DNA from: Aequorivita iocasae
Lineage (GTDB): Bacteria; Bacteroidota; Bacteroidia; Flavobacteriales; Flavobacteriaceae
Assembly (NCBI RefSeq): GCF_016757735.1
Contig: NZ_CP068439.1
Coordinates: forward strand, 2,480,001 to 2,544,000
DNA length: 64,000 nt
Reading direction: 5' to 3'
Shown here: piece by piece, positions 11,443 through 62,851 of the stretch
Layout of the letters: each line of letters starts with the position of its first letter
How positions within the stretch are numbered: position 1 is the first letter of the stretch
The notes under the pieces: model-generated
Seen by the model: the letters and a program-made list of their open reading frames with translations, nothing else
The model's database searches: none
What the model was told of the DNA's origin: nothing
Position numbers and translations under genes: made by a program

Positions 11443-11443
11443 T

Positions 11444-12442: not shown

Positions 12443-12495
12443 AAGCAATATATTTATTATTATCCTTTTCAGAAAAATGATTTATTATTAATTAG

Positions 12496-13932: not shown

Positions 13933-13938
13933 GTATTA

Positions 13939-41317: not shown

Positions 41318-41377
41318 TATATTTGGTTTCTCCCCTTTTATTTTGTTCCAGTGCGGAATCCCGTAATGGGATGGATT
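41318..41377 (+). promoter_or_regulatory. Leader-like repeat, copy 1 (upstream of KAP operon)
   Basis: A TATATTTG -7-like box (41318-41325) is followed by TCTCCCCTTTTA (41329-41340) and a 24-base exact repeat (41352-41375) that contains an ATCCC/GGGAT hairpin with a GTAAT loop. The same arrangement occurs at 48639-48698. The copy lies about 195 bases before the KAP gene and 40 bases before the HsdR remnant. Promoter, attenuator and recombination site are all possible. Confidence 0.6.
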
Positions 41378-41417: not shown

Positions 41418-41507
41418 ATGCCACCAAACCAAAACCCTGAGCAAATAGCGCGCTATAAAATTGACGCCATGCTATTTAAAGCAGAGTTGTTTACGGGAAG
41501 GTTTTGA
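41418..41507 (+). pseudogene. HsdR-like N-terminal remnant (type I restriction)
   Basis: A 29-codon frame reads MPPNQNPEQIARYKIDAML and continues FKAELFTGRF before a stop. The part NPEQIARYKIDAML matches the conserved opening of type I restriction subunit HsdR (typically NPEQxARDKIDxxLxxAGW), with the expected AGW continuation absent. It is a stump of a restriction gene replaced or deleted at this locus. Confidence 0.5.
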
Positions 41508-41570
41508 GGGGAATCATCAAATGGAAATTCAAAATGCTTAATTATTTAGTAATCTCTTTATAATTTAAAA

Positions 41571-44300
41571 ATGTTGAATGATTGGATAGAAAATTGCAGA
41601 AAGTATGTATTGCGGTATCTATTAATTATTGCAATTTTATTTGTTTCTAAAAACATTATACAGAAACTTTTAATTGGTCTTGGCAAACTCTTCAATTTTG
41701 AATCGACCGAGTTTAAAATAGGTTATATTATATTGATAATTCTTGGATTTAGTAGCTACCTATTCTTAATAGATAAAAAATTTATAGTTTCAAAAAAGGG
41801 GCATTTCCTTGCAATTGCTCTATTCTCAAGTTATTTGATTTTTCGATTTTTCGACAACGGAGTTATATATCTTCCAGAACCCACGCTTTTAAAATACATT
41901 GATGTCGTTGTTTTATTTTTTCTATTGCATTGTATTCACTGGAGCAACATTAAACTACTAAGCTCAATTACAAATTCCAACAGTAAGGACTTTTTTATCA
42001 ACGATGCTGTATTTGTAGATGGAGAAATTGATAATGAATTAATTGTACAAAAACTTATTACTAGCATTAAAGGCTACAAACCTAAAAACTCATTTAGCAT
42101 AGGCATTAATGCGGAATGGGGTTTTGGTAAATCAACCTTTTTACATCGATTTGATCAAGAATTTAGAAAAACCAATTCCGAAACCATTATGTTTTGGTTT
42201 CACATTTGGAAAAATAAAGGTGATAAAGCAATCATTGATAATTTCTTCAAAGAATTCGCAACAAACCTTAAGCCTCACTCTGCTGAAATTGAAGATAATA
42301 TTGAAAAATATACTGATGCTATTTTAAGTGTAAGTCCGGGAGAGATTAGCAATTTAATACGAGCTGGTAAAGATATCTTTAGAGAAGATCATAGTCTTGA
42401 AGGGTACTATCAAAAGATTCAAGAGGCTATCAAACGGATTAATCGCCAAATCATAATTATACTTGATGATTTGGATCGACTTGAAAACAACGAAATTCTT
42501 GATACCTATAAAATTATAAGAACATTATCTGATTTTGACAATGTGATATTTCTAGCTGGTTATGACAGAAATTACCTAGAAAAAACACTTGGTGATAGTA
42601 AGGAGAACTACATAAATAAAATTTTTCAAGTAGAAATTGATCTCCTACCATTTGATGAGAGTCAAATCAATGAAATGCTTTTGGATGGTATTAAAAAAGC
42701 ATTTCCACATCGTATTAATCAAGAAGACAAGCAAGAAGAACACATTAGAAATGAAAAATTATTTCTAGTATTTAACTCCTTATTTGCTGGTAAAGCTTTT
42801 CAAGCATCTTTGGATTTATCTAACATTAGTCTTGATAATTTACTTAATGAAGAAACCCAATTTAGTTGTAGTGACTTAAAATTAGATTATAAATATTTTA
42901 TTAGAACCTATAGAGATCTAAAGAGATTTCTTAATGAATTTAAATTTAGTAAAACCTTAATTAATACGAATGATATATATCTTCCCGATTATGTACTATT
43001 TAGACTTTTAACTTTTCGCTATAAAAATTTACACCATTTAGTTTTTGAAAAAATATCAAACATTATTGATAACAAAGACTATGACGTGGTAAATGAAAAA
43101 ATGACTGATAGTTGGAACGAGACTGATGGTAGTCATTATATTTATACTGAAAGCTCAAAAGAAAAACTATTCGATACACTGAAAGCGAATAATTATAATT
43201 TAAAAGATATAGAAATCATAAATGCTTCCTTATGTATTTTGTTCGGTGAAAAAAGTAAAGCTTTCTATGAAACAAATCAATATACTATTTCTAAATCTTA
43301 TTACACAAATTTTTATTTAAGAAATGGAATTCCTAATGATGCGTATACTGTCTCTAAATTTAAAGAATCTTTTTACGCAGGTAATATAGTAGACTTGATA
43401 AATAAAATGAAGGGTTTGTCTCAAAATGTTAGATTACAAGCTTTCAATGAGCTAAAATTATATTTGTTTTCAATTGCTAATTCCGTAGAAAACAACAAAG
43501 CTGATTTTTCAAAATTTATAATCGCATTAAATCACTTTGAATTCATTTCTCTGGTAAACGATTTCAAGGAAGTTGAAAAAATAATTCAAAATTTCTCGGA
43601 AAAAACACCGAATCTTACTCATACAGATTTAAAGGATGCTCTTATTAATTCAAATATAATTATAGGTCCACTAGATCGCTTTTTAGCAGATGTAATCATC
43701 AATGCAGCAAGAAAAGAAAGAGATGATATATACACAAAAGAAAATTCTATCGAATACGCTAATTTTCCTTTTAATGTAACAGACACCAAGAATATATTAT
43801 TAGAAAAGTTCGAAAACGTCTTGAAACAAAATGTAGGATATAATATTCACTTTAGCTACTACACCCTTCAAGTTGATTTTATTGCGGTAGACTTTCAAAT
43901 AATACTAGCATTTAAAGCTGACAAGCTATTTAAAAAACACATCCAACGGAATTTTCTTCATTTTTTGTGGGTAGGTTATCTAGATTTTAAAGCAGAACCA
44001 GAAGGATTCCCACAAGAACATCAGACTTATAAACCTAATGATTTTCTTTGTCAGATTTTCTGCAACATAACAGATTGGAAGGCTCTAAAAGCTCATAAAA
44101 AAAATAAAGATATTTATAAACAATTTAGAGAGAATGGATTCAAAAACTATAATGAGTATTTGATGACTGAGGAAATTGAAAATATTATAGTAGGTGAAGA
44201 CCACAAATCGAAGTTGGAAAGGATTAAAAAATTAATGAAAGTCTTTATTGCCAATGATTGTAAACCATTAAACAGAAAACAATTTGCAGAAGTTAAATAA
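41571..44300 (+). CDS. KAP-family P-loop NTPase with membrane segments (putative defence)
   Basis: A 909-residue protein with four hydrophobic helices in its first about 130 residues (e.g. VLRYLLIIAILFVSKNII, YIILIILGFSSYLFLI), which anchor it in the membrane, then a KAP P-loop domain: Walker A NAEWGFGKSTF at about residues 180-190 and Walker B IIIILDDLDRLEN near 294-306, then a YDRNYLEKTLG sensor-like segment. The long helical C-terminus has no recognised domain. KAP proteins with N-terminal helices occur in phage-defence loci. It is first in a four-gene operon whose next gene overlaps its end. Confidence 0.85.
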   Translation: MLNDWIENCRKYVLRYLLIIAILFVSKNIIQKLLIGLGKLFNFESTEFKIGYIILIILGFSSYLFLIDKKFIVSKKGHFLAIALFSSYLIFRFFDNGVIYLPEPTLLKYIDVVVLFFLLHCIHWSNIKLLSSITNSNSKDFFINDAVFVDGEIDNELIVQKLITSIKGYKPKNSFSIGINAEWGFGKSTFLHRFDQEFRKTNSETIMFWFHIWKNKGDKAIIDNFFKEFATNLKPHSAEIEDNIEKYTDAILSVSPGEISNLIRAGKDIFREDHSLEGYYQKIQEAIKRINRQIIIILDDLDRLENNEILDTYKIIRTLSDFDNVIFLAGYDRNYLEKTLGDSKENYINKIFQVEIDLLPFDESQINEMLLDGIKKAFPHRINQEDKQEEHIRNEKLFLVFNSLFAGKAFQASLDLSNISLDNLLNEETQFSCSDLKLDYKYFIRTYRDLKRFLNEFKFSKTLINTNDIYLPDYVLFRLLTFRYKNLHHLVFEKISNIIDNKDYDVVNEKMTDSWNETDGSHYIYTESSKEKLFDTLKANNYNLKDIEIINASLCILFGEKSKAFYETNQYTISKSYYTNFYLRNGIPNDAYTVSKFKESFYAGNIVDLINKMKGLSQNVRLQAFNELKLYLFSIANSVENNKADFSKFIIALNHFEFISLVNDFKEVEKIIQNFSEKTPNLTHTDLKDALINSNIIIGPLDRFLADVIINAARKERDDIYTKENSIEYANFPFNVTDTKNILLEKFENVLKQNVGYNIHFSYYTLQVDFIAVDFQIILAFKADKLFKKHIQRNFLHFLWVGYLDFKAEPEGFPQEHQTYKPNDFLCQIFCNITDWKALKAHKKNKDIYKQFRENGFKNYNEYLMTEEIENIIVGEDHKSKLERIKKLMKVFIANDCKPLNRKQFAEVK

Positions 44301-45639
44301 AAACCTTCAAAAACCTACAGCAGCAATTTTCAATATTAAAAAATTGCTTCAATGTAATTTTAAAATTGCAGCCTATCAACGACCTTATAAATGGTCTGTT
44401 AAAAATGTAAATGATCTCATTGACGATATGATAACTTTTCAAGAGAAAAACGCATATCGTATAGGTACTATTATTATTTACAGAGGTAAAAAAAAGAAGA
44501 TTAAAGAAATTGTAGACGGTCAACAACGCTATTTAACTTTATTGCTTATATACAAAGCTTTAAAAGAAAATGAACCGTCTAATACCTTACTAAATTTCGA
44601 TGTACCTTCTTTAAATAATTTAGAATTTGACAATGCGATCAGTATTGCTAATCTAAAAGCAAATTATGCTCATATACAATCTAGAGTTACTGATTTTGAT
44701 GAAGGTTTAATTCGTTTCTTTTTAGAAAAATGTGAGTTTGTTCAAGTTACTATAACCGATTTAGGAGAGGCCTTTCAGTTTTTTGATTCCCAAAACTCTA
44801 GAGGTAAAGCTTTATATCCTCATAATTTACTGAAAGCTTTTCACCTTCGTGAGATGAACCACCTAGAGGAGCCTGAGAAAATCAAAATTATTGCGCATTG
44901 GGACAAAACAGATCCTCAATTCCTTAAAGATGCTTTTGCCAATTATTTTTTTAAAATCAGGAATTGGTCAACAGGTAAAAGTGCGTCCTATTTTTCTAAA
45001 GATGAAATATCCGTTTTTAAGGGGGTAAATCTTTTAGACAATCAATTATACCCATATGCCCGGTCTATTGCCATAAATGCAAAGTATGTAGGCTTAAAAC
45101 AGCAGATTCTCTATGACTTTAATGATAGCCAAGAGCACTTCCCCCACCAGCTTGATGCATTCACTGTAAATGGCGAGTGGTTTTTTGATTTTGTAAAACA
45201 CAAATCTAAAATGGTTGAAGCAATTAAAGACTTTACAAATGACTATTACAACTTTGATGATCATAATTCTAAAGCTTTTGAGGTCATTAATAAATTAAAT
45301 ACTTATACTAAATCGTATAGAACAGGAGATAAGTATTGCCGTAATCTATTTGAAGTAACCCTGCTCTATTACATCGATAAATTTGGAGAAAAGCAACTGG
45401 AAAAAGTGATTCCATTAATTTTCTTTTGGGCTTACAGACCTCGTATAAAACTTACAGCCGTAAGACTTGAATCTGTTGACAACCATGCGAGACATCCTAA
45501 TAGCCTCATTCGCCTCATTAAAGAAAGCTTAACCACATCTCAAGTACTCATCTATAGACTCAAACCAATTACTAAAATAGGCGGTAATTCTGATGAGCTA
45601 GCTAGACTATATACTGAATACAAACTTATCCAAACCTAA
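44284..45639 (+). CDS. DUF262 domain protein (putative defence)
   Basis: A 451-residue protein with an N-terminal DUF262 (GmrS-like, ParB/Srx-fold) domain: FKIAAYQRPYKWSVKNVNDLIDDM, YRIGTIIIYRG and the DGQQR motif at residues 78-82, followed by FQFFDSQNSRGKALYPHNLLKAF. No DUF1524/HNH nuclease domain is seen in its C-terminus. The likely start is TTG 44284, inside the KAP gene (17-base overlap), because no ATG occurs before the domain. It ends overlapping the next DUF262 gene by one base. Function would be NTP-driven nucleic acid recognition, by analogy. Confidence 0.82.
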   Translation: MQKLNKNLQKPTAAIFNIKKLLQCNFKIAAYQRPYKWSVKNVNDLIDDMITFQEKNAYRIGTIIIYRGKKKKIKEIVDGQQRYLTLLLIYKALKENEPSNTLLNFDVPSLNNLEFDNAISIANLKANYAHIQSRVTDFDEGLIRFFLEKCEFVQVTITDLGEAFQFFDSQNSRGKALYPHNLLKAFHLREMNHLEEPEKIKIIAHWDKTDPQFLKDAFANYFFKIRNWSTGKSASYFSKDEISVFKGVNLLDNQLYPYARSIAINAKYVGLKQQILYDFNDSQEHFPHQLDAFTVNGEWFFDFVKHKSKMVEAIKDFTNDYYNFDDHNSKAFEVINKLNTYTKSYRTGDKYCRNLFEVTLLYYIDKFGEKQLEKVIPLIFFWAYRPRIKLTAVRLESVDNHARHPNSLIRLIKESLTTSQVLIYRLKPITKIGGNSDELARLYTEYKLIQT

Positions 45640-47603
45640 TGTCCAAAAATCCACCACTATTAAGTATTTCTGATATTTTTAAAAATGCAAATTATAGCAT
45701 ACCTATTTATCAACGTGAATATGCCTGGACAATCACGGAAGTTACACAGTTGCTGTCTGATCTATGTAGTCAAGCAAAAGCCAATCAAAACGACAACTAC
45801 TATTTAGGCACTTTAGTTATTAATAAAGGAATTCGTGATATAGAAGAAGTTATAGATGGACAGCAACGATTAACCACCCTATATATACTACTAGCTTACC
45901 TGTCTCACAATAAAGAATCATCTTATAATCTTAATTTTGATTTTGACACGCTGTTATTTGATTCCAGACCCCATTCAATTAGCGCTTTACAAGCCGTCTA
46001 TCATAAAAAACTTGATGATGTAAATGAACCAGCAATAAAAGCAACTTATAAAATTATTAGAGATAACCTAAGTCAATATTTTGAAGAGTTTAGTATTACA
46101 GAGGAAGAATTTACAGACTACCTTTTAAATAAAACGCTTCTTCTCAAAGTTACAGTACCACCGGATACAGATCTTAACCATCATTTTGAGATTATGAATG
46201 TCCGTGGTGAGCAACTTGAAAAGCACGAGGTTCTCAAATCAAGACTTATGGGGTTTTTAAAAGATTACCCAGAGGATCGGGAACTATTTAATACTGTATG
46301 GGAAGCTGCAAGTGATATGAACCGATATATACAGTTGTTCTTTACAAGGATTACAGGAGATGATACTAAAAACTCCCGAAAGAAAATCTTTGGAAATGAT
46401 GGAAATACAATACCAGAATGCTATGAAGAATTACTTACAGCCTTTATAAGTACTCAAGAGGTATATGAAAAAGAAAATAAGTCATCTAAATCAAGTTTGA
46501 ATAAAATTCTAGAGTCAAAAGAAATAATTCACTTGGAAAAATCTGAAAATAAAGAATATCAGGAACAACTTACAGCTGTTATTAACTTTCCTAATTTTTT
46601 ACTTCACGTTTTAAAAATTCAAGAAAACAACAAGGATGTAGCCTTAGATGACAAACAATTACTCAAACAATTTGAGCAAGTTTATAATTATAAGAGTGAT
46701 CAATCTAAGTTTGCTAAAGATTTTTGCTATAGTCTACTCAAAATGAAATTTTTATTTGATAAATACGTTATTCGAAATTTAGATTTAGGACAGGACACCA
46801 AATGGATATTATGGAAGCAAGTTCATCAGTTTCAAAAAGGAAAATCACATTACTTTAAAGATACATTTGAGTGGGCTGAGAGGGAAGATGAAAACAATAA
46901 TGATAATAATCGTATCATAATGTTACAATCTATGTTTCACGTATCTTTTCCTACAAGAATCTATAAGCATTGGTTTAACGCTACCTTATATCACTTGTTT
47001 AATAATTCTAAAAGGGGAGTAATTGAGGCAGAAGAGCTGATAGCTTATTTGGAAAAATTGAATGATGCTTTTTTCTTTGATCGAAATCAATCATCTGATG
47101 ATGATTTAGCATATGAAGAAATTATTTTCAACAATAAGGCTTTAGCAAAAAATAATACTGTAAGCGATGATATTTGGAGTTTAGGCACGCAAACTAAAAA
47201 TTTCATATTCAATAGGCTTGACTATTTAATTTGGTATTATTCCACAATAGAGACAGAAACTCATAAAAATCTAATTTCAATTGATAAAGCTAAAAATTTT
47301 CAATTTGGTTTTAGAAGTTCAGTAGAGCATTTTTTTCCTCAACACCCTAGAAATGGAGATGAACCTCCTTTTGACAATATAGATTGCTTTGGAAATCTTT
47401 GTCTTATTAGCCAGCAAAAAAACTCACGTTTTAGTAATGACTTACCAAAAGCAAAAAAAGCAAACTATCACAGACCAGATGACAAGCCCGAAAGCTTAAA
47501 AATGGAATTAATGTGGGAAAATGCCGATAATTGGAATGCGGAGAATCTTGAAAAACATGAGAAATTAATGATTGAAATCTTAAACTCAACTTATGAAGGA
47601 TAG
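45639..47603 (+). CDS. DUF262-DUF1524 (GmrSD-like) putative nuclease
   Basis: A 654-residue protein with the complete two-domain layout of GmrSD-type type IV restriction enzymes: DUF262 (YSIPIYQREYAWTITEV, YYLGTLVI, DGQQR at residues 73-77, FEIMNVRGEQLEKHEVLKSRLM) and a C-terminal DUF1524 HNH nuclease (SVEHFFPQHP at about 562-569, FGNLCLIS, NSRFSNDLPKAK). GmrSD cleaves modified phage DNA. Here it is paired with a second DUF262 protein and a KAP NTPase, an arrangement I do not recognise as a named system. Start ATG overlaps the stop of the upstream gene by one base. Confidence 0.88.
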   Translation: MSKNPPLLSISDIFKNANYSIPIYQREYAWTITEVTQLLSDLCSQAKANQNDNYYLGTLVINKGIRDIEEVIDGQQRLTTLYILLAYLSHNKESSYNLNFDFDTLLFDSRPHSISALQAVYHKKLDDVNEPAIKATYKIIRDNLSQYFEEFSITEEEFTDYLLNKTLLLKVTVPPDTDLNHHFEIMNVRGEQLEKHEVLKSRLMGFLKDYPEDRELFNTVWEAASDMNRYIQLFFTRITGDDTKNSRKKIFGNDGNTIPECYEELLTAFISTQEVYEKENKSSKSSLNKILESKEIIHLEKSENKEYQEQLTAVINFPNFLLHVLKIQENNKDVALDDKQLLKQFEQVYNYKSDQSKFAKDFCYSLLKMKFLFDKYVIRNLDLGQDTKWILWKQVHQFQKGKSHYFKDTFEWAEREDENNNDNNRIIMLQSMFHVSFPTRIYKHWFNATLYHLFNNSKRGVIEAEELIAYLEKLNDAFFFDRNQSSDDDLAYEEIIFNNKALAKNNTVSDDIWSLGTQTKNFIFNRLDYLIWYYSTIETETHKNLISIDKAKNFQFGFRSSVEHFFPQHPRNGDEPPFDNIDCFGNLCLISQQKNSRFSNDLPKAKKANYHRPDDKPESLKMELMWENADNWNAENLEKHEKLMIEILNSTYEG

Positions 47604-48318
47604 TATTGAAAATAGGTTCTCCTTAAAAGATATAAAAAGTGCATTTGACCATTTCCTTGGACAAGAAAAGTATGGTGTCCGAGATATATTTAATGGTATC
47701 CTAAATTCAATTAGCAAACAATTACAACAAGAAGGGATTTATGCGTTTTGGTGGAAAAATGAAAATGACTTGCTTAAAAACCATTTACTAAATCCAGATA
47801 CATCCTATTATTTAAAAGGTCCACATGACAACTCAGAAAAGGCAAACCACTTCTTAAGAGTAATTTTCAATAAAGAATGGATAAACAATGCTAGTCAAGG
47901 TACTCATATCTGCTTATATGTAGGGAAAAGCACAAATATTAAATCAAGAATAAATGGTCAAATAAAATACAATATAGATCCAAAAAAGTTTAACCAATTT
48001 GATCCTACTATCTGGAAAGATAGTAAAAGTAAAAATCAATTAGATGACGATCATAGTCATCTATGGCCAGAATCCAAGAACAATGAAAGATTAACAAAAT
48101 GCAAATATGGTTTTGGTAAAAAACCTAATACTGTAAGTCAATTGCGTATAGGCTTGGAACGTCTTTTTAATACCGATGCATTAGAATTAATTAAAGAGCA
48201 CGTAGAGATTTCATTTTTACCTTATCCTGGAAAAGAAAATGCTGTAAACCGTTTCTTTATAGAGGAAAAACTAATCGCTTCTTTGTATCCTATTTTAAAC
48301 ATAGATGTTGAGAGATAA
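47593..48318 (+). CDS. GIY-YIG-like endonuclease domain protein
   Basis: A 241-residue protein. GIY at residues 48-50 (QQEGIYAFWW) and YVG at 109-111 (HICLYVGKSTNIKSRI, catalytic Arg about 119) match the GIY-YIG nuclease core with an unusually long insertion of about 55 residues. Near the C-terminus NRFFIEEKLIASLYPILNI supplies the expected Glu and Asn. A role as the nuclease arm of the operon is inferred. It overlaps the DUF262-HNH gene by eleven bases, so translation is coupled. Last gene of the operon. Confidence 0.65.
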   Translation: MKDSIENRFSLKDIKSAFDHFLGQEKYGVRDIFNGILNSISKQLQQEGIYAFWWKNENDLLKNHLLNPDTSYYLKGPHDNSEKANHFLRVIFNKEWINNASQGTHICLYVGKSTNIKSRINGQIKYNIDPKKFNQFDPTIWKDSKSKNQLDDDHSHLWPESKNNERLTKCKYGFGKKPNTVSQLRIGLERLFNTDALELIKEHVEISFLPYPGKENAVNRFFIEEKLIASLYPILNIDVER

Positions 48319-48638: not shown

Positions 48639-48698
48639 TATATTTACAGCTCTCCCCTTTTAAATTGTCCCTAATGCGGAATCCCGTAATGGGATGGA
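48639..48698 (+). promoter_or_regulatory. Leader-like repeat, copy 2 (upstream of phosphorothioation operon)
   Basis: TATATTTA (48639-48646), TCTCCCCTTTTA (48651-48662) and the 24-base exact repeat (48675-48698) reproduce the order and spacing of 41318-41375. It lies about 180 bases before the DUF4007 gene. The shared core includes an inverted repeat ATCCC-GTAAT-GGGAT able to form a small hairpin in RNA. Confidence 0.6.
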
Positions 48699-48880: not shown

Positions 48881-49765
48881 ATGATATTGGAAAATACTGA
48901 AATAATTAAATATACATTCTCTGGACATGACTCTTTTCAATGCCGACAACTTTGGTTAAAAAAGGGTTATGACTATGTGCAAGAAGGGAAGAATTTTAAC
49001 GATGAAGATGCGGTTGTTGAACTTGGAGTTGGGAAAAATATGGTTTCATCAATTCGTTTTTGGTTGAAGGCTTTCAACATTATCGACAACAAGGACATAC
49101 CAACTGAATTTGGAAAGCGATTATTTGATGACGAAACTGGCTATGATCCTTTTTTGGAAGATGAAGCAAGTCTTTGGCTTTTGCATTATCAGTTAGTGAA
49201 AAATGGTTTTGCTTCTATATACTCTATCATTTTTAATGAATTCAGAAAAGAGAAACTCTTCTTTAACAAAGAAACCTTTGTAAACTACATGAAGAGAATT
49301 GGAGAGAGCAATCCTGATTTGAATTTCAATGAAAACACGGTTGCTAAAGATTTTATTGTTTTTTCAAACCTTTATAAAAGTGATCCTGAAAGTAAGGATG
49401 TTGAGGATAGTTTTTCCGGCATTCTTTCTGAAATAGAACTTTTAAAGACCAGTGGAAAAGGCAAAGATGAGCAATTTTTCATTGAGAATTCAGAAAGAGA
49501 CGATCTTCCTGAGTCAATCGTTTTGTATGCTATCTTGGACAATCCAAACTACACAAATTCAATTAGTTTAAATTCCCTTGAGTTTGATTGGAATAGTCCA
49601 GGTTCAATTTTCGCTTTAAATCGTTCGGGATTGATGAATAAAATCGCTGATATTATTGATGATTCCAAAGAAGTAACTTTTACTGATCAGGCTGGGATTA
49701 AAGAATTACAGTTCAAGAAAAAAGAAGACGCTTACAAAATTTTAGATAGATACTATGCCAAATAA
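48881..49765 (+). CDS. DUF4007 family protein (phosphorothioation-associated)
   Basis: A 294-residue protein of the DUF4007 family: FSGHDSFQCRQLWLKKGYDYV near the N-terminus, VVELGVGKNMVSSIRFWLKAF, TEFGKRLF, DPFLEDEASLWLLHYQLV and a C-terminal FALNRSGLMNKI region. DUF4007 proteins are recurrently encoded beside DNA-sulfur-modification genes and a large ATPase. Its activity is not established to my knowledge. It overlaps the ATPase gene by eleven bases and is the first gene of the operon, about 180 bases after the leader-like repeat. Confidence 0.88.
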   Translation: MILENTEIIKYTFSGHDSFQCRQLWLKKGYDYVQEGKNFNDEDAVVELGVGKNMVSSIRFWLKAFNIIDNKDIPTEFGKRLFDDETGYDPFLEDEASLWLLHYQLVKNGFASIYSIIFNEFRKEKLFFNKETFVNYMKRIGESNPDLNFNENTVAKDFIVFSNLYKSDPESKDVEDSFSGILSEIELLKTSGKGKDEQFFIENSERDDLPESIVLYAILDNPNYTNSISLNSLEFDWNSPGSIFALNRSGLMNKIADIIDDSKEVTFTDQAGIKELQFKKKEDAYKILDRYYAK

Positions 49766-52700
49766 TTTCACTACATCGGTAAATATTATCAGAGATACTG
49801 ATAGGGACTTCAATTACATCCCAACACCTAATTCGAGACAAGTTGTTAGCCAAATAGTTAATGACTTTAAAAAGGGGATCCGTTCATTTAATATAGTGGG
49901 AACGTATGGAACTGGTAAATCTTCATTTCTTTTGGCGTTCGAGCAAAGCGTACAAGGAACGAAACGTTACTTTGAGACTAATTTCCTTGCTGATCCTAAG
50001 TTTGATTTTATAAAATTTATTGGTTCTTATGCTTCTATTGTAGAGCAATTTGCAGATGCATTTGATGTTCAAATAAATAAGAATCAACAAGAAAATATAC
50101 TTTCAGAAATATTTAACCGATACCATTATATTGGAAAAGAAAACAAAGTTTTATTTATACTAATTGATGAGTTTGGAAAGTTTTTAGAGTATGCTAGTAA
50201 GCACAACCCTGAAAAAGAATTATACTTTGTTCAGCAATTGGCAGAATTCTGTAATAACCCAAAGCACAATATTGTTTTACTTACCACAGTTCACCAAAGC
50301 TTAGAATCTTACGCTTATTCACTAAGTAAAACCCAACAACAAGAATGGACAAAAGTAAAAGGGCGTTTTCGTGAAATCACTTTTAACGAGCCTGTTGAGC
50401 AGCTTTTGTTCTTGGCTTCGGAATATGTCGCAGAAAACTTTGAAACAAAGACTTCAAAATCAGAAATTGAAAAATGTTTGAAGCTCACTACTGAAACGAA
50501 AGCCTTTAACTTCAACAAAGATTTTCTAAAAGAAATTGCTTCAAAACTATATCCGCTTGATATTCTTTCCGCCAATATTCTCACGTTATCATTGCAAAGA
50601 TATGGACAAAATGAACGTTCATTATTTTCATTTCTTGAATCATCAGACCATACAGGTTTGGCTAAATTTAACAAACAAGTAAATCCATTTTACAATCTGT
50701 CAAATGTTTATGATTACCTCAATTTCAATTTCTATTCGTTTTTAACATCAAAATATAACCCCGATTTTTCTGCTTGGAGCTCTATCCGCTCAGCTATGGA
50801 GGAAGTGGAAAGAGCGTTTGATTCCAACATTAATGATTACATCAAATCGGTAAAAACGATTGGACTTTTGAATATCTTCTCAGCAAGCGGTTCAATATTG
50901 GACTTGAATTTCTTTGTTGATTATTTGAAAACTGCTTGTGGAGTGTCAGATGCCAATGATATTATAAAAAATCTTGAAGCCAAGAATATTATTCGCTACC
51001 GTTCCCATTCAAAACGATATATTCTTTTTGAAGGAACAGATTTAGACATTCAAACTGCATTGATAGAAGCGGCAAATAAAATTTCGGAAGTGGTTGATAT
51101 TACAACTCTTCTGAATAAACACATTCAATTCAATCCAGTTTTTGCCAAGCAATATTCCTTTGCAACAGGAACTCCGAGATATTTTGAATTTATTATTTCA
51201 GACTATCCCGAAACCAAAAAAAATCCAGAAGGTGAAATTGATGGCATTGTGAATCTTGTTTTTAATAGCAAGCTGAAAGAAGACGATATTCAAAATAAAT
51301 CAAAATTACAGGAGGAAGCGATTATTTACTGTTTTTTTAAAAACTCAGCTGAGATAAAAAACTTATTGTTTGAGATTGAGAAAATTCAAAAGGTTATTGA
51401 AGAAAATAAAGATGATAAGGTAGCCAAGAGAGAACTTGAAAATATTGTTGAATCACAAATACGTTTATTAAACCACTATATAACGGATAGCATTTTTTCA
51501 GGCAGCAAAGATGTGAAGTGGTATTTTAATGGTGAAGAAAAGAAAATTGTTGATAAAAAGGACTTCAACAAGTTGCTTTCTCAAGTTTGTAGCTTAGTAT
51601 ATGATGCCACTCCTGTTTTTAAAAACGAATTGGTTAACAAACATAAAATATCTTCTTCAATTCATACAGCCAAGAAAAGATATTTTTCAGCATTAGCCAA
51701 TGATTGGGATAAAGAAAATCTAGGGTTTGAAGACTCAAAATTTCCACCCGAAAAAACCATTTATCTTTCATTGCTAAAAGAAAATGAAATTTCACCCATT
51801 CGCGAAAACGCAACAGACGTAATTGCAATTGATAAGAAATCAAGTTTTTTCAAACTCTGGAGAGCCTCAGAAGACTTTTTAGAAAGTGCTAAATCAGAGC
51901 AACTGAAAGTTTCGGAGCTAAGTGAACTTTTAAGCAAGCGTCCATTCAAACTCAAACAAGGCTTGATTGATTTTTGGGTTCCCACCTTCTTGTTTTTAAA
52001 ACGTGATGATTTTGCGGTATTCGGTGAAGATAGCTACATCCCTAATCTTTCAGAGGAAAATTTAGAACTGATAGCAAAGTATCCTGAAAAATATTCTATC
52101 AAAACATTTGATATTGAAGGCGTAAAGCTTGATATTTTCAACAGCTACCGAGCATTTTTGAATATTGCTACTGAGCAAAAATTTGACAACAATTCTTTTA
52201 TAGAAACCATCAAACCTTTTATTGTTTTCTACAAACAGTTACCAGAATACAGTAAGAACACAAAAAGACTTTCACCATCAGCTATTAAGATTAGAAAAGC
52301 GATTGCCACCAGTAAAGACCCAGAGGAAACATTTTTTGAAGCATTTCCTAGTGCTTTAGGATTGTCTCTTTCTTCTTTACAACAAGACAAGTCTAAACTT
52401 CAAAACTTTACTAGGAGTTTGCAGGAGGGAGTAAGAGAACTACGAACCGCTTATGATGAGTTAGTGCAGCGTTTTGAAGATTTCATTTGCAGTGAGTTTG
52501 TCGGGAATACAGCTGACTTTGATGAATATAAAGAATATCTTCAAAAACGTTTTTCAAAGCTAAAAAAACATATGCTTTTAAGTAATCAAAAGACTTTTGT
52601 ACAGCGTTTAGATTCACCGCTTGATGATCGAAAGGCTTGGTTGAATTCAATAGTACAGGCGGTTGCCGGAAAAACTTTAGAAGCATTCTCTGATGAAGAT

Positions 52701-52976
52701 GAAATCCTGCTTTACGAACGATTCAAGTCAATGATTTTGGAATTGGATAGTTTAACCAAAATCTCAAAAACTGATATTGATGAAAGTAAAGAAGAAGTTA
52801 TTGGAGTTAAAATCGATTCGTTTTTTAGCAAGTTAGACCCCAAAGTGGTTCGAGTACCAAAGAATAAGAGCAAGGAGATTGAGCAATTGAAAAATGAGCT
52901 AAGAAATAAATTGGGAAAAGACAATACTTCAAACATTGCAGCTGTCTTGAATCTATTAAAAGAATTATTACAATGA
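49755..52976 (+). CDS. Large AAA-type ATPase of a phosphorothioation-linked system
   Basis: A 1073-residue ATPase: Walker A GTYGTGKSS at residues 49-57, Walker B-like VLFILIDEFGKFLEYA at about 133-147, and an arginine-finger-like region TTVHQSLESYAYSLSK...KGRFREITF at about 180-215. The remaining 800 residues are mostly helical with no named domain. Proteins of this type are recurrent next to DUF4007 and are thought to drive restriction in sulfur-modification systems. It overlaps the DndC-like gene by four bases. Confidence 0.78.
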   Translation: MPNNFTTSVNIIRDTDRDFNYIPTPNSRQVVSQIVNDFKKGIRSFNIVGTYGTGKSSFLLAFEQSVQGTKRYFETNFLADPKFDFIKFIGSYASIVEQFADAFDVQINKNQQENILSEIFNRYHYIGKENKVLFILIDEFGKFLEYASKHNPEKELYFVQQLAEFCNNPKHNIVLLTTVHQSLESYAYSLSKTQQQEWTKVKGRFREITFNEPVEQLLFLASEYVAENFETKTSKSEIEKCLKLTTETKAFNFNKDFLKEIASKLYPLDILSANILTLSLQRYGQNERSLFSFLESSDHTGLAKFNKQVNPFYNLSNVYDYLNFNFYSFLTSKYNPDFSAWSSIRSAMEEVERAFDSNINDYIKSVKTIGLLNIFSASGSILDLNFFVDYLKTACGVSDANDIIKNLEAKNIIRYRSHSKRYILFEGTDLDIQTALIEAANKISEVVDITTLLNKHIQFNPVFAKQYSFATGTPRYFEFIISDYPETKKNPEGEIDGIVNLVFNSKLKEDDIQNKSKLQEEAIIYCFFKNSAEIKNLLFEIEKIQKVIEENKDDKVAKRELENIVESQIRLLNHYITDSIFSGSKDVKWYFNGEEKKIVDKKDFNKLLSQVCSLVYDATPVFKNELVNKHKISSSIHTAKKRYFSALANDWDKENLGFEDSKFPPEKTIYLSLLKENEISPIRENATDVIAIDKKSSFFKLWRASEDFLESAKSEQLKVSELSELLSKRPFKLKQGLIDFWVPTFLFLKRDDFAVFGEDSYIPNLSEENLELIAKYPEKYSIKTFDIEGVKLDIFNSYRAFLNIATEQKFDNNSFIETIKPFIVFYKQLPEYSKNTKRLSPSAIKIRKAIATSKDPEETFFEAFPSALGLSLSSLQQDKSKLQNFTRSLQEGVRELRTAYDELVQRFEDFICSEFVGNTADFDEYKEYLQKRFSKLKKHMLLSNQKTFVQRLDSPLDDRKAWLNSIVQAVAGKTLEAFSDEDEILLYERFKSMILELDSLTKISKTDIDESKEEVIGVKIDSFFSKLDPKVVRVPKNKSKEIEQLKNELRNKLGKDNTSNIAAVLNLLKELLQ

Positions 52977-54076
52977 GCAAAGTAAGACACGTATTAGGCA
53001 TATCAGGAGGAAAAGACAGTGCAGCTTTGGCTATTTATGTCAAAACTAAATATCCTTCTATTAATTTAGAATTCTATACCTGCGACACAGGTAAGGAATT
53101 AGACGAAACCTATCAATTGATAAAAAATCTGGAGATTTATCTTGGAATCAAGATTGAACTTTTGCAAGGTGCACAAAATAGTTCAGAAGACCCCTTTGAC
53201 CATTTTTTGAAAATGTATGGAGGTTTTCTGCCCTCCTCGCAAGCTCGTTGGTGCACCAAAAAGTTAAAGTTAGAACCTTTTGAAAACTATGTAGGAACAG
53301 ATCCAGTGATTTCTTATGTTGGAATCAGAGGTGATGAAGAAAGAGAAGGATATATTTCTACCAAAAAAAATATTCAATCAATATTTCCATTTCGTAAGAA
53401 TATTTGGAGTCAAGATGTTGTTCAAAAAATGCTTTCGAACCAAAATATAGAGCAATTAATAGAAATGTCTTCAAGCATAGACTTTGGTAAAAATCAGGAA
53501 AAAGCATTACTAACGATTACTCGAAAGTTGGATACAAGTTTCACCATTGACCAAAAGCTAAATGTTTTATTAGATGCAAATGTGAAAGCGTTTAATCATT
53601 TAGTTTTTGATTACTTGAAAACAACCGATTACCCTTTAGCAACTGAAGCTACTTTTCCGCTTTTGGAAAATGACGAAGTATTGTTGAGAGATGACATTTT
53701 TAAAATATTGAAAGAAAGTGGCGTAGGTGTACCCGCATATTACAACAAAATAGATTTTGAAATTAATGGAAAAAAAGGAGAATATGCTAGAAGTCGCTCT
53801 GGCTGTTTCTTCTGCTTTTTCCAACAGAAAATTGAATGGGTGTGGCTGTATGAACAACATAAAGATTTGTACTTAAAAGCAATGGAATATGAGAAAGATG
53901 GTTATACGTGGGCACAAGGCGAAAGTTTAGAGGATATAATTAAACCTGAAAGAATCGAACAAATCAAGGAAGAGTACATTAAAAGAATGGAACGAAAATC
54001 AAAAGTTAAATCACCTTATCTGGTGGACATCTTGGATGATGCTGAGGGAGAAGGATGTGCTGCTTGTTTTATTTAA
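52973..54076 (+). CDS. DndC-like PP-loop sulfur-transfer protein
   Basis: A 367-residue PAPS-reductase-family PP-loop ATPase: SGGKDS at residues 11-16, FYTCDTGKELDETYQLI, SSQARWCTKKLKLEPF, then a cysteine-rich GCFFCFFQQKIEWVW near residue 274 and GCAACFI at the end, which together could hold an iron-sulfur cluster. DndC supplies sulfur activation for DNA phosphorothioation. Canonical DndC is nearer 500 residues, so this is a short variant. Its position, between the ATPase and DndB/DndA, supports the role. Confidence 0.8.
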   Translation: MSKVRHVLGISGGKDSAALAIYVKTKYPSINLEFYTCDTGKELDETYQLIKNLEIYLGIKIELLQGAQNSSEDPFDHFLKMYGGFLPSSQARWCTKKLKLEPFENYVGTDPVISYVGIRGDEEREGYISTKKNIQSIFPFRKNIWSQDVVQKMLSNQNIEQLIEMSSSIDFGKNQEKALLTITRKLDTSFTIDQKLNVLLDANVKAFNHLVFDYLKTTDYPLATEATFPLLENDEVLLRDDIFKILKESGVGVPAYYNKIDFEINGKKGEYARSRSGCFFCFFQQKIEWVWLYEQHKDLYLKAMEYEKDGYTWAQGESLEDIIKPERIEQIKEEYIKRMERKSKVKSPYLVDILDDAEGEGCAACFI

Positions 54077-54089
54077 TTTTTCTGAGGGT

Positions 54090-54617
54090 ATGACTGGTAG
54101 TGCATTTTCATTAGGAGAAGAAGTAGAATTGAGAAAAGTCGAGTATAAACTTCACGGAGAGCTGTGGAAAAAATTTACCTCTACTGATTTTGATTTAAAT
54201 TTTGAGAATTGGATTAAAATAAAATACTTGAATGAAAATGCAGATGATTTTGATGATAATATAAGAGATGTTCCCCATAATAAAGGTGGGTTATACTTGT
54301 TTTATGTGAAATGTCAAATAATTTCTGGAATAACCGAATACCCTTTATATGTTGGAAGGGCACAAATAACAGAAAACCAAAATCTAAGAAAACGAGTTAA
54401 AGAATATTTCCAGAAATATAGCAAGAGTAATGAAAGACCTAAGTTAACCAGAATGTTCAATTATTGGAAGAATGATTTGTACTTAGCTTATTATCCACTA
54501 GATGATAACGAAGATGTGATTAGTATTGAAAATCAATTCATAAACTCTTTACTTTTACCTATGAATACTGAAATTCCAGATACCGAAGTTAAACAAGCAA
54601 TTAAAGCATTCCAATAA
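54090..54617 (+). CDS. GIY-YIG-like nuclease domain protein inside the phosphorothioation operon
   Basis: A 175-residue protein with GLY at residues 67-69 (KGGLYLFYV), YVG at 87-89 (YPLYVGRA), a conserved Arg at about 99 (NLRKRVKEYF), a Glu in SIENQFINSLLLPMN near residue 150 and the closing Asn. This is the GIY-YIG nuclease pattern. I chose ATG 54090 rather than 54036, because it follows a purine-rich GAGG and removes a 41-base overlap. It is not part of canonical Dnd systems and would add a nuclease to this variant. It shares one base with the DndB gene. Confidence 0.62.
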   Translation: MTGSAFSLGEEVELRKVEYKLHGELWKKFTSTDFDLNFENWIKIKYLNENADDFDDNIRDVPHNKGGLYLFYVKCQIISGITEYPLYVGRAQITENQNLRKRVKEYFQKYSKSNERPKLTRMFNYWKNDLYLAYYPLDDNEDVISIENQFINSLLLPMNTEIPDTEVKQAIKAFQ

Positions 54618-55849
54618 TGAAAATACCTGCATTAAGATCTAAAATAGGAGATTGGGATTATTACGTAACTACTTTAACATTTGAACAAGTGAGACAGTAT
54701 GTCTCAAAAATTGATGACCAGTTACATAAGTCAGATTCACTTAAAGATTTGATTCAAAGAAGCATTACAAATAACTTTTTAAGTATAAAAGATTACATTA
54801 TTAATCAACCTTCTGTTTTTTTTAATTCACTTGTCCTTGCTGTTTATGACGATTATCCTAATTGGCAAGAAATTGAGTTTAAATATGATGGTATTGAAAC
54901 TTATAAAATGGGCTTGCTTGATTTTTCAAGTAATCATAAAATATTTCCCGTTGATGGTCAGCATCGTGTTGAAGGAATAAAGGCAGCATTAAGAGAAAAT
55001 CCCGAATTTAAAAATCATCAAATAGCTGCAATATTTATTGGTCATAAAAATGATATTGAAGGCAAACAACGAACAAGAAGGTTGTTTACAACTTTAAACC
55101 GATACGCAAAACCGGTTAAATTAGATGACATTATTGCGTTAGATGAAGATGACTCTGTTGCAATAGTAACAAGGCATATGCTAGAAGAATATGATTTATT
55201 TACAGATAAAAGAGTAATTTATTCTAAACAAAAGGCAATACCCACCAATAATAAGGATGCATTAACTTCAATAATAACTCTATATCAAGCTAATGTTGAA
55301 TTATTTAGTGTTTACTATGAAAAAAAGTTTGAAAAAAAACCTACGAAGAATCGAGTCTCTGAGTATTTAAAATTCAGGCCATCAGAAGAAGAAATTGAAG
55401 AATTTAAAATCTTTTGTATTCAATATTGGGACTCATTTAAAAGTAAACTTTCTTTTATAACCGAATATCTAACCCTAGATGTTAATGCTGCCGTGCCCTA
55501 CCGAAATAATGAAACCGGAGGAAATCTTCTTTTTAGACCAATTGGGTTACTTCCATTTTTAAAAGCAAGTTTAACAATCCACAAGAGAGAGGAAAAGACT
55601 TTCAATGAAATTTTTGAAAGGTTTAATAATATCAATTATGCTATAGATACTCCGCCTTGGCAGTATGTTGTATGGAACCCTATTGAAAATAAAATGATTA
55701 TGAATGCATCTTCTTTAACATATTTGTTATTGATATACCTATATGATAGTAAGATACTTCAAGGAAATGAATTACAAAAATTGAAAGAAGGTTACGCTTC
55801 AAAAATTTCCTACGAGCAGAATCTAGATGATGTTTTAAATGAGATCTAA
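54617..55849 (+). CDS. dndB: DndB-like DGQHR-domain protein
   Basis: A 410-residue protein with the DGQHR motif (PVDGQHRVEGIKAAL) at residues 113-117, the hallmark of DndB and related DGQHR-domain proteins, and an RRLFTTLNRYAKPV segment typical of the family. DndB represses or modulates the dnd system and binds the modified promoter region. The DGQHR fold is related to the DUF262/ParB-Srx fold in the neighbouring operon. Starts at ATG overlapping the GIY-YIG gene by one base. Product followed immediately by DndA (TTG start). Confidence 0.85.
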   Translation: MKIPALRSKIGDWDYYVTTLTFEQVRQYVSKIDDQLHKSDSLKDLIQRSITNNFLSIKDYIINQPSVFFNSLVLAVYDDYPNWQEIEFKYDGIETYKMGLLDFSSNHKIFPVDGQHRVEGIKAALRENPEFKNHQIAAIFIGHKNDIEGKQRTRRLFTTLNRYAKPVKLDDIIALDEDDSVAIVTRHMLEEYDLFTDKRVIYSKQKAIPTNNKDALTSIITLYQANVELFSVYYEKKFEKKPTKNRVSEYLKFRPSEEEIEEFKIFCIQYWDSFKSKLSFITEYLTLDVNAAVPYRNNETGGNLLFRPIGLLPFLKASLTIHKREEKTFNEIFERFNNINYAIDTPPWQYVVWNPIENKMIMNASSLTYLLLIYLYDSKILQGNELQKLKEGYASKISYEQNLDDVLNEI

Positions 55850-56998
55850 TTGGAAGAATTGAACAAAATATCATACCTCGACTACAACGCCACCACCCCA
55901 ATCGACCCAAGGGTATTTAAAGCAATGTTACCGTTTTTAAAGGACAATTTTGCCAATCCAAGCAGCACCCACCATTTTGGACAGAGTATCAATGGAAAAG
56001 TAAAACAGGCTCGTGAACAAATCGCAGATTTTATTAATGCTGAATCTAATGAATTAATTTTTACTAGCGGAGCAACAGAAGCTATTAATATTGCCATTAA
56101 AGGAATTGCGGAAAGCTATTCAAATAAAGGAAAACACATCATCACTCTATCAACTGAACACAAAGCGGTTTTAGACACTTGCAAAGATTTAGAACGAAAA
56201 GGTTTTGAGGTTACTTATTTGCCTGTTCAACCTAATGGATTGATTGATTTAGTAGAATTGAAACAAGTCATACGACCTGACACTATTTTGGTTTCCGTAA
56301 TGTATATCAATAACGAAACCGGAGTCATTCAACCAATAAAAGAAATTGCAACATTGACCCACCAAAATGGAGCTTTGTTTATTACAGATGCCACACAAGC
56401 AGTTGGCAAAATTGAAATTGATGTAGATGCTTTAGGCATTGACTTACTTTGTTTTAGCGGTCATAAAATGTATGCTCCAAAAGGGATTGGAGCCTTGTAT
56501 GTAAGAAATAAAACAAAACTCACCCCTCAAACGCACGGAGGTGGTCACGAACAAGGCTTGAGAAGTGGTACACTCAATGTTCCTGGAATTATTGCCTTGG
56601 CAAAAGCTTGTGAAATAGCCAGTGAAGAAATGGCTTTGAATCAAAGAAAAATTTCTGCATTGAGAGACAAACTCGAAACTGAATTTTTAGAACTGCCAAA
56701 TACTTCACTTATTGGTGATTTAGAAAACAGAATTTTCAACACGACCAATATTTGCTTCAAAGGACAAGATGCCAATGTTCTGATAGGCAGAATGAAAAAT
56801 ATTGCTGTTTCCAATGGCTCTGCTTGTTCATCGGCTGTTATTGAGCCATCCCACGTTTTGAAAGCTATGGGATTAAATGATGATGATGCTTTTGCCTCTC
56901 TCCGTTTTTCATTAGGAAAATACAACACAATTGAAGACATTGAAACTGTAGTCAACAAAATAAAAGAACTCACTCAACCAAATTTTAAATATGCTTAA
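55850..56998 (+). CDS. dndA: Cysteine desulfurase DndA
   Basis: A 382-residue PLP-dependent NifS/IscS-type cysteine desulfurase: ISYLDYNATTPIDPRVFKAM, the substrate and PLP site TSGATEAINIAIKG, LLCFSGHKMYAPKGIGALYVR (PLP lysine in SGHK) and a cysteine loop SNGSACSSAVIEPSHVL. It supplies persulfide sulfur for DndC. The first usable codon is TTG 55850, directly after the DndB stop; this non-ATG start with zero spacing implies translational coupling. It is the sulfur source of the operon. Confidence 0.9.
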   Translation: MEELNKISYLDYNATTPIDPRVFKAMLPFLKDNFANPSSTHHFGQSINGKVKQAREQIADFINAESNELIFTSGATEAINIAIKGIAESYSNKGKHIITLSTEHKAVLDTCKDLERKGFEVTYLPVQPNGLIDLVELKQVIRPDTILVSVMYINNETGVIQPIKEIATLTHQNGALFITDATQAVGKIEIDVDALGIDLLCFSGHKMYAPKGIGALYVRNKTKLTPQTHGGGHEQGLRSGTLNVPGIIALAKACEIASEEMALNQRKISALRDKLETEFLELPNTSLIGDLENRIFNTTNICFKGQDANVLIGRMKNIAVSNGSACSSAVIEPSHVLKAMGLNDDDAFASLRFSLGKYNTIEDIETVVNKIKELTQPNFKYA

Positions 56999-59195: not shown

Positions 59196-59205
59196 AATTC
59201 TTCTT

Positions 59206-59436
59206 ATGGCAAGGAAAGACGATATACTCAAAAGTTTTTTAACCCACGAGCTCATTGAAAACAAGTATAAACTTAAAAAAGAAGAAATGCCTTCTACAGT
59301 TAGAGAAGCTTTGAATTCTGATATTCCGATAGTAAAAGCAGTTGCTTTAATTGTGGAGGGCTTGGAAAAATCTCCTACAGCAACTGATAATGAATTGAGA
59401 AATAGTGTTCTTCAATTTTTAAATACTGCGATATGA
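59206..59436 (+). CDS. Small unknown protein of the phosphorothioation operon (76 aa)
   Basis: A 76-residue acidic, helical protein starting MARKDDILKSFLTHELIENKYKLKK and continuing with VREALNSDIPIVKAVALIVEGLEKSP. I do not recognise a family. It occupies the usual place of DndE next to dndD but lacks the ribbon-helix-helix-like features known for DndE, so a DndE substitute is a guess. Spacing: 10 bases after the helicase and sharing four bases with dndD. Confidence 0.6.
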   Translation: MARKDDILKSFLTHELIENKYKLKKEEMPSTVREALNSDIPIVKAVALIVEGLEKSPTATDNELRNSVLQFLNTAI

Positions 59437-61619: not shown

Positions 61620-61620
61620 G

Positions 61621-62142
61621 ATGAAAAATTTGTTTGAAAAATGGAAAGAAAAAATTCCTAAATACCACATAGTTTTTAGAGAGACTTTATTTGAAAAATT
61701 GACGCGTACAGGTGGTGGTGGTGAACAAGGAAGAGAAGATAGAGGGAAACAATTCTCAAACAACTATGAGTTATATATTTATGCTTTCTTTTTTGGGTTG
61801 TATAAAGACGAATATAGTCCAATATCCGAGGGTTCAAGGAAAATTGATTTTAGTATGCCTATTAAGACTTGGGGTAGTAAAACTAATGTTTTAGGTCGTA
61901 AGGACTTTACTAACTTGCAAGAAAATATGTTTATATCACTTTTAGCAAAAACGGACATTGACCTAGTAGCTCTTGAAAAAGGAGAATTGGACGAAGATGA
62001 TGCAGTAAAACTGTTGATTAAAACAATGGAATCTTACACCAACGGAGGACTCATTCTGATAAAGGAAAAACTGGAAGAAAATCCTAACTACTTCCTTCAG
62101 CCGACTTCATTTGTGAATATGATATTAGAGACCGCTGATTAA
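61621..62142 (+). CDS. Unknown protein (173 aa) at the end of the phosphorothioation operon
   Basis: A 173-residue protein with no recognised domain: opening KNLFEKWKEKIPKYHIVFRETLFEKL, a glycine-rich loop RTGGGGEQG near residues 30-38, an aromatic-acidic stretch NYELYIYAFFFGLYKDEYSPI, then IKTWGSKTNVLGRKDFTNLQENM and an acidic helical C-terminus. It begins one base after dndD and is the last gene before the IS-truncated region. A system-specific accessory protein is likely from context. Confidence 0.68.
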   Translation: MKNLFEKWKEKIPKYHIVFRETLFEKLTRTGGGGEQGREDRGKQFSNNYELYIYAFFFGLYKDEYSPISEGSRKIDFSMPIKTWGSKTNVLGRKDFTNLQENMFISLLAKTDIDLVALEKGELDEDDAVKLLIKTMESYTNGGLILIKEKLEENPNYFLQPTSFVNMILETAD

Positions 62143-62510: not shown

Positions 62511-62777
62511 ATGAGACGAAGTAAATTTTCACCGCAACAGATTGCAAAGATTTTAAAGGAATTCGACAACGGAAAGAGTGTTGACCAGATCAGCCGTGAG
62601 CACGGTGTTGCCCCTGCGACCTTCTATAAGTGGCGCTCCAGGTATGCCGGGATGAACACCAAGGAGCTCAAGCGCCTCAAGGAGCTGGAAGAAGAGAACG
62701 CCAGGCTCAAGCAGATGTATGCCTCCCTTGCCCTTGACCACCAGATGGCCAAGGAGATCATCGAAAAAAAGCTCTAA
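62511..62777 (+). CDS. IS3-family transposase OrfA
   Basis: An 88-residue helix-turn-helix and leucine-zipper protein: [44 protein letters not shown] is a typical IS911/IS3 OrfA DNA-binding region, followed by a coiled-coil [21 protein letters not shown]. Its last codons include an A7 run (62764-62770) at which ribosomes can slip -1 into the orfB frame, which is open from about 62765. Confidence 0.9.
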
Positions 62778-62851
62778 AGCCCTGCAGGAAGCGAACCATT
62801 GCCAAAGAACTTATTCATTACGGCATCTGCAGGGCGTGCCGTGTACTCAAC

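Follow-up and report, generated by a model that had tools for sequence, protein, structure and literature searches.

The 64,000-nucleotide stretch of the Aequorivita iocasae chromosome studied here (contig NZ_CP068439.1; hereafter, the window) carries four overlapping genes on its plus strand that form a candidate antiphage cassette. These are kap (gene 1; positions 41571 to 44300; 909 amino acids [aa]), encoding a membrane-anchored KAP P-loop NTPase; a tgvA-like gene (gene 2; 44284 to 45639; 451 aa from a TTG start) with DUF262 and DUF7834 domains; a tgvB-like gene (gene 3; 45639 to 47603; 654 aa) with DUF262 and DUF1524 (His-Me/HNH) domains; and a GIY-YIG-family gene (gene 4, or GIY1; 47593 to 48318; 241 aa). 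An earlier note on this DNA had described four overlapping genes of the defense type, encoding a membrane-anchored KAP NTPase, a nuclease-less DUF262 protein, a GmrSD-like DUF262-DUF1524 enzyme, and a GIY-YIG-like protein. All four open reading frames (ORFs) were recovered at those coordinates and on that strand, with successive overlaps of 17, 1, and 11 bases, and their Pfam domains are related to restriction and defense.

The kap product matched KAP_NTPase in Pfam (E = 1.5e-32), and hydropathy analysis placed three hydrophobic segments (approximately residues 12 to 37, 48 to 73, and 104 to 130) N-terminal to its Walker A motif (INAEWGFGKST, from residue 179); the Walker B region reads IIIILDDLDR. 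No hydrophobic segments were found by hydropathy in the products of genes 2, 3, and 4. The gene 2 product matched GmrSD_N/DUF262 (E = 7.1e-27) and DUF7834 (E = 1.2e-57) and had no Pfam match to DUF1524 or another nuclease domain. It retains the motifs QR (residues 32 and 33), DGQQR (78 to 82), and FxxxN (167 to 171). The gene 3 product matched both GmrSD_N (E = 4.5e-30) and GmrSD_C/DUF1524 (E = 1.5e-11) and retains QR (25 and 26), DGQQR (73 to 77), FxxxN (183 to 187), H564, N586, and N595, with H564 and N595 being invariant in an alignment of 10 sequences.

Gene 4 falls below the Pfam threshold itself, and its predicted membership of the GIY-YIG superfamily is supported by motif residues and by its orthologues. 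The positions of the superfamily's catalytic residues are occupied by GIY (48 to 50), YVG (109 to 111), R119, E224, and N236, with a long insertion separating the GIY and YIG motifs. The assignment gains support because the orthologues from the two other complete cassettes (below) clear the GIY_YIG_2 cutoff (27.4 bits for L041 and 25.8 bits for L042). Used as a query, the protein matched its own genome alone among 249 genomes; a profile matched 3 of 296 genomes, its own and two in which the match was to the small GIY-YIG-like gene that belongs to a phosphorothioation island. A search of viral contigs and phages yielded nothing useful, and there was no PADLOC match at an E value of 0.1 and no informative PDB sequence match. 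A relative of gene 4 occurs in Cupriavidus (L021) without KAP or TgvAB matches nearby.

The architecture and motifs of genes 2 and 3 point to a TgvAB-like pair. TgvAB is a two-protein type IV restriction system of the GmrSD family from Vibrio cholerae VPI-2 that restricts phages whose hydroxymethylcytosine carries sugar modifications (PMC11411939). TgvA has an N-terminal DUF262 domain, TgvB has DUF262 and DUF1524, each protein is required, and substitutions in the DUF262 or His-Me domain abolish protection against Tevenvirinae (PMC11411939; reviewed in PMC12409362). The spacing between H564 and N595 of gene 3 (31) is identical to that between the residues changed in the published TgvB mutants H571A and N602A (PMC11411939). 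The earlier expectation that two DUF262 proteins form an NTP-dependent recognition complex served by an HNH effector agrees with published accounts of both TgvAB and GrwAB, the latter consisting of two DUF262 proteins that are both needed and that respond to base hypermodification (PMC12137116).

To place the cassette, we collected the closest TgvA loci, i.e., the best 80 of at least 423 confirmed relatives. The complete cassette, with gene order kept, was found in two of these: the Flavobacteriaceae metagenome-assembled genome UBA1903 (L041) and Psychroflexus aestuariivivens (L042), where the genes overlap by 17, 1, and 11 bases and by 14, 8, and 11 bases, respectively. In BLASTN comparisons of window positions 38001 to 64000, similarity formed a single block in each case, spanning 41483 to 48312 (plus strand) against L041 (positions 7211 to 14029; 85.6% nucleotide identity) and 41570 to 48318 against L042 (77.3%), and no similarity to L041 was found beyond the cassette edges at an E value of 1e-5. 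Because the similarity forms one block only, the cassette is a discrete unit, and because both genomes carry the identical gene set, the combination is not due to chance. The four-gene unit proposed earlier is thus conserved with its order in two further genomes, in both of which it is positioned after hsdR, hsdM, and hsdS genes (Pfam checked).

Amino acid identities to the L041 and L042 orthologues are 87% and 67% for KAP and 84% and 80% for the TgvA-like protein. Pairwise ratios of nonsynonymous to synonymous divergence (dN/dS) ranged from 0.09 to 0.22 for all four genes in all pairs, with dS reaching 1.5 in the more distant pairs; the cassette genes are under purifying selection. Between the window and L041, dS was 0.28 for kap and 0.71 to 1.20 for the other three genes, a dip that is also seen along the alignment. 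As kap has a lower dS than the other three genes, these values suggest that it may have been exchanged separately from the rest of the cassette.

The wider census comprised 97 TgvA-like loci (80 genome contigs, 6 viral, 4 plasmid, and 7 further genomes). Two of them, L014 and L049, do not differ at their TgvA ends and probably represent a single record, and 22 of the 80 closest loci are shorter than 15 kb; the genome searches sampled larger groups. By a strict script, tgvA and tgvB were ordered and adjacent in 86 of the 97 loci. In four more (L079, L094, L102, and L111), both genes are present and appear to overlap over a longer distance; in L053, L121, and L124 the stretch stops at or just past tgvA, L107, L117, and L119 gave a tblastn match with no ORF labeled tgvA, and L126 is a fragment. 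Type I restriction genes flank 46 of the 97 loci within the fetched flanks, on both sides in 31, and the published order hsdM-hsdS-tgvA-tgvB-hsdR (PMC11411939) is contiguous in 11, such as in Acinetobacter (L108). The seeds behind these type I labels were first named by eye, and most were then confirmed by Pfam. Of 395 genomes of the class, 8 were found to have DUF7834, the C-terminal family of TgvA.

Other arrangements of TgvAB relatives were also seen. Plasmid records with a TgvA-like gene at less than 60% identity number 891, of which 854 are from Klebsiella; in one Klebsiella plasmid record (L005), a TgvB-like gene lies 3′ of the TgvA-like gene. McrB and McrC homologues occur near TgvAB-like pairs in 4 of the 97 loci (L057, L064, L072, and L088), which means that type IV enzymes of different kinds are at times carried together. 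In Aliarcobacter (L002) and Arcobacter (L057), the pair lies between a gene of 775 aa (annotated as PD-(D/E)XK in L002; its L057 counterpart is 83% identical) and one of the UvrD type (1,043 and 1,040 aa; 85% identical), and in L057 McrBC follows. This could be another four-gene variant of TgvAB. Isolated look-alikes of phosphorothioation genes near TgvAB were an SspA-like gene (L090), a weak PbeA match (L080), and a weak SMC match (L043); at a stricter limit, the SspA-like match alone remained.

We then asked where relatives of the KAP protein are found. A single-protein search (E = 1e-20) matched 10 of 395 genomes, an alignment search (E = 1e-40) matched 8 of 397, and a profile (E = 1e-60) matched 1 of 247 genomes of the class, its own only. 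Searches of plasmids (E = 1e-10) and, with a two-row KAP alignment, of viral contigs gave nothing useful, and there was no informative PDB sequence match. Outside the window's genome, the KAP searches yielded three full-length relatives, and all three adjoin type IV genes plus type I or type III genes. In L032 and L137, type I genes are followed by KAP, McrB, and McrC (in L137, mcrC is split over two frames and the hsdS match covers 99 aa). In L136, KAP comes after a type III-like methylase and helicase and a transposase, and behind it lie a DUF262-DUF1524 protein and then a long protein with DUF262, which together have the architecture and order of GrwAB; the KAP frame there, near the transposase gene, has no clear start. 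None of the three loci had a GIY1 or GIY-YIG seed match. As a control, the surroundings of the eight partial KAP matches of the single-protein search (L033 to L040) were screened, and none of the restriction seeds was present there; the partial matches of the alignment search (L132 to L135) were not part of this control. One further KAP gene, in L074, follows a type I cluster with an embedded TgvAB pair and precedes a GIY-YIG-like gene (20.4 bits against a cutoff of 22.6) and a DUF4357 gene.

Taking together the observed domains and motifs, the conservation as a unit, the purifying selection, and the modular neighbors, we consider it likely that the four genes are a mobile cassette that carries out type IV (modification-dependent) restriction and is built on a TgvAB-type core to which KAP and GIY-YIG genes have been added. 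We infer the roles of KAP and of the GIY-YIG protein, the formation of a complex, and the target modification as follows. TgvA and TgvB would form a heteromeric complex; its two DUF262 NTPases would both recognize base hypermodification in the DNA that enters, and NTP turnover would then allow the His-Me nuclease of TgvB to cut. That each protein is needed and that modified bases are the target are points carried over by analogy from the published TgvAB work. KAP, anchored in the inner membrane via its N-terminal helices, would form an oligomeric DNA-binding NTPase, as the published work on QatA suggests by analogy, and might hold or load the TgvAB machinery where DNA enters, giving it a wider range. 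The GIY-YIG protein may then serve as a second nuclease on captured or cut DNA. Carriage next to a host-marking system (type I, or phosphorothioation here) would ensure that hypermodified phages that escape the marking are still cut.

Several observations weigh against this interpretation. The complete cassette is known from three genomes only. Among the other 78 closest loci, KAP is present in one (L074), and the fetched flanks of the remaining 77 show no KAP or GIY1; because 77 of 80 loci have neither, the TgvAB core does not require the two additions. The proposed kinship with TgvAB is based on architecture, motifs, and context, including homologues in the published five-gene order. The Pfam match of gene 4 to GIY_YIG_2 scores only 19.6 bits against a cutoff of 22.4. 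Finally, the seeds of the KAP control covered type I, McrBC, TgvAB, and phosphorothioation genes and not type III genes.

A more general proposal, which we put forward tentatively as a possibility, is that a distinct membrane-anchored KAP clade is an exchangeable partner of modification-dependent restriction. It would pair with TgvAB, McrBC, or GrwAB-like modules beside a host-marking system and tether or power them at the inner membrane to catch entering hypermodified DNA, and the present cassette, with its added GIY-YIG nuclease, would be the most elaborated form. The sample of this clade is small. The link between KAP and type IV enzymes in L041, L042, and L074 is partly selected because these loci were found through TgvA, leaving L032, L136, and L137 as those that came from KAP searches. 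If a census upholds the link of KAP to three kinds of type IV enzymes, it would point to a step that type IV enzymes have in common and that has yet to be named.

The edges of the cassette carry further features. Two copies of an approximately 48-bp direct repeat, each with the dyad ATCCC-N5-GGGAT, lie on the plus strand upstream of kap (41329 to 41375) and between the cassette and SspB (48651 to 48698), i.e., in the same orientation upstream of the KAP cassette and of SspB. A same-genus genome has copies in L152 (approximately 8923 to 8974) and L153 (approximately 9200 to 9227), which precede a type I cluster with a GrwAB-like pair and an operon whose genes are of the DndB-like, GIY-YIG, methylase, and ResIII kinds. 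A 24-mer derived from the four copies, with up to three mismatches allowed, found six sites in three genomes, compared with none for a reversed-pattern control; these are the four source copies and two degenerate sites (L154 and L161), which do not precede recognized defense genes. None of 500 shuffles reached the window score, and the 24-mer had no match in the L041 and L042 genomes. The repeat could be a shared operator or an insertion site.

Directly upstream of kap, a frame at 41418 to 41486 (plus strand) is a possible relic of an hsdR N terminus, with a short match at an E value of 1 or worse. It matched only three plasmid records (E = 1 to 8), all annotated as DEAD/DEAH helicases, one of which aligned over residues 4 to 24 and lies beside an hsdS gene; local BLAST of the loci found no hsdR and gave five chance-level matches. 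As judged from this hsdR-like relic, the cassette may once have stood beside a type I system here too.

A phosphorothioation island, to which the earlier note makes no reference, begins 562 bp downstream of the cassette and ends at 62142. Its SspB, SspC, and SspD genes (48881 to 54076, plus strand) make up a neighboring, separable unit, and the rest (54036 to 62142, plus strand) carries a second GIY-YIG-like gene, DndB, SspA/DndA, PbeA, a PbeC-like SMC gene, and a dnd_assoc_4-like gene; the second GIY-YIG-like gene and the dnd_assoc_4-like protein are each below the model cutoff. Judging by its gene content, the island seems to unite modification genes of the Ssp system with restriction genes of the Pbe type. 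The ORFs past the island (62511 to 63640) are presumably transposase-like. In L141 and L142, SspB-SspC-SspD, DndB, the second GIY-YIG-like gene, the dnd_assoc_4-like gene, SMC, and PbeA occur, some of them in the reverse orientation, and the cassette is absent from the fetched stretch; L142 has DndB in two pieces and no recognized SspA. SspB (PF13182) is present in the window's genome and was not found in the genomes of L041, L042, and L074, for which completeness was not given. A DndC model matched none of these four genomes, a negative that carries no weight because the model also missed the window's own genome, which has SspD. The left flank of the island had no match in two same-genus genomes, and therefore no empty site was seen. 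Since each occurs without the other, the cassette and the island are distributed independently.

The proximity of the island nevertheless raises the question of whether the cassette is its restriction arm, sensing phosphorothioate through DUF262 in the manner of SspE. The two share a strand and are separated by 562 bp, the DUF262-DUF1524 architecture of gene 3 is that of SspE, and SspE was the sole PDB match of gene 3 as a single query at a limit of 0.01 (E = 0.0086); in a search with a profile of 10 TgvB homologues, SspE was among five PDB matches, ranked below unnamed DUF262 proteins. However, the cassette in L041 and L042 lies beside type I genes in genomes without detected SspB, the island in L141 and L142 occurs without the cassette, and the island is already equipped with PbeA and with an SMC gene resembling PbeC. 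This distribution makes phosphorothioate dependence unlikely, and we regard such an arm as very improbable. A different division of the locus would make it two independent mini-systems in one operon, namely, a TgvAB enzyme and a KAP/GIY-YIG pair that, blind to modification, would cut entering DNA at the membrane as a two-piece SNIPE. The 77 closest loci with TgvAB and neither KAP nor GIY1 fit this view, as do the order in L074 (KAP, then GIY-YIG-like and DUF4357 genes, with TgvAB elsewhere in the same type I cluster), the lower dS of kap, which may reflect separate exchange, and the existence of SNIPE, in which a GIY-YIG nuclease bound to the membrane cuts phage DNA that has been injected (PMC13190303). 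On the other hand, all four genes overlap in a fixed order in all three cassettes, and KAP also precedes McrBC or a GrwAB-like pair without GIY seeds, which suggests a link to type IV restriction and not to GIY-YIG. We therefore find two mini-systems rather unlikely.

KAP might also be a suicide effector that is triggered by TgvAB and damages the membrane, which would make the system abortive; this has been proposed for PifA, reportedly a membrane-damaging protein. PifA is the best PADLOC match of kap (E = 2.8e-30), and the N-terminal hydrophobic segments would suit such a role, but the match spans the P-loop domain only (residues 158 to 393). Furthermore, the TgvAB authors conclude that direct action on the phage is likely, with some phages overwhelming TgvAB at high multiplicity (PMC11411939). 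An abortive role is, in our estimation, improbable, and type IV restriction by a TgvAB-type core with KAP and GIY-YIG additions remains the reading that we prefer. The reason that two DUF262 proteins are required in TgvAB and GrwAB and the way in which such enzymes recognize modified DNA are described as open questions (PMC11411939, PMC12409362, and PMC12137116). A natural pair whose genes overlap those of a membrane NTPase and of a probable additional nuclease offers a ready test system, and such cassettes are seen to move between different host-marking systems.

Cassette proteins had no TgvAB-named match in PADLOC-DB 2023, the matches being mainly to HEC-06, Orf5, SspE, and PifA. No named system holding all four genes was found in that database or in the open-license PMC papers searched, and in the portions of this literature that were covered, KAP combined with DUF262, GmrSD, McrBC, HsdR, or GIY-YIG is not described as the present gene set. 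The single "kap" in the 2015 GmrSD paper, considered as a prior report, is an author name in the reference list, and the KAP protein in PMC10855626 is a row in an expression table. The earlier note had called the combination unrecognized. This no longer applies to the TgvAB-like pair, which is already known, and individual proteins do have PADLOC matches; the four-gene cassette with its KAP and GIY-YIG additions and the association of KAP with several type IV enzymes appear to be new in the literature searched.

Among known systems, QatABCD also has a KAP NTPase within a multigene defense operon. That protein, QatA, is able to bind DNA and seems to assemble into heptamers or octamers, and when QatA and QatD are lost, some phages can infect again (PMC13279940). 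The similarity of kap to QatA is limited to the P-loop region, however, and membership in QatABCD was rejected: the scanned genes have no QatB, QatC (QueC-like), or QatD (TatD) domains, and the QatA equivalog scored 24.6 against a cutoff of 600. GIY-YIG nucleases act in antiphage defense in CMoRE/PD-T4-3, where the GIY-YIG protein is itself a type IV enzyme (PMC12923530), and in SNIPE. Gene 4 has no Pfam match to DUF4041 and no hydrophobic segment, and it has no PADLOC match and no informative PDB match, the presence of CMoRE in those libraries being unconfirmed. We use CMoRE, SNIPE, and QatA as analogies for gene 4 and KAP. URI/GIY-YIG nucleases are reported from Dnd neighborhoods, and a KAP NTPase is reported to be coupled with Orc/Cdc6 genes in mobile defense neighborhoods (PMC10853773); the terms DUF262 and GmrSD are absent from the main text of that article, and the present gene set is not described in the portions covered here. 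The Ssp/Pbe system resembles the cassette through chromosomal adjacency and the DUF262-DUF1524 architecture that SspE shares with gene 3, but the cassette and the island are independently distributed. An SspE-type phosphorothioate-dependent arm was rejected on co-occurrence with a modification module, as the cassette occurs in L041 and L042, where SspB was not found.

There are also parallels with other DUF262 enzymes. BrxU, GmrSD, and SspE have the DUF262-DUF1524 architecture of gene 3 but are usually single proteins without a second DUF262 partner. GrwAB, like genes 2 and 3, has two DUF262 proteins; however, its gene order is reversed, and GrwB has a long C terminus unlike that of TgvA. The pair that adjoins KAP in L136, but not that in the window, has this form, as judged by its architecture. 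With TgvAB, genes 2 and 3 share adjacency, the order of a DUF262 protein first and a DUF262-DUF1524 protein second, a DGQQR motif in each, and an association with type I clusters. The published TgvAB consists of two genes inside hsd genes, whereas the pair in the window is overlapped on both sides, by the KAP and GIY-YIG genes, and has a phosphorothioation island as its neighbor.

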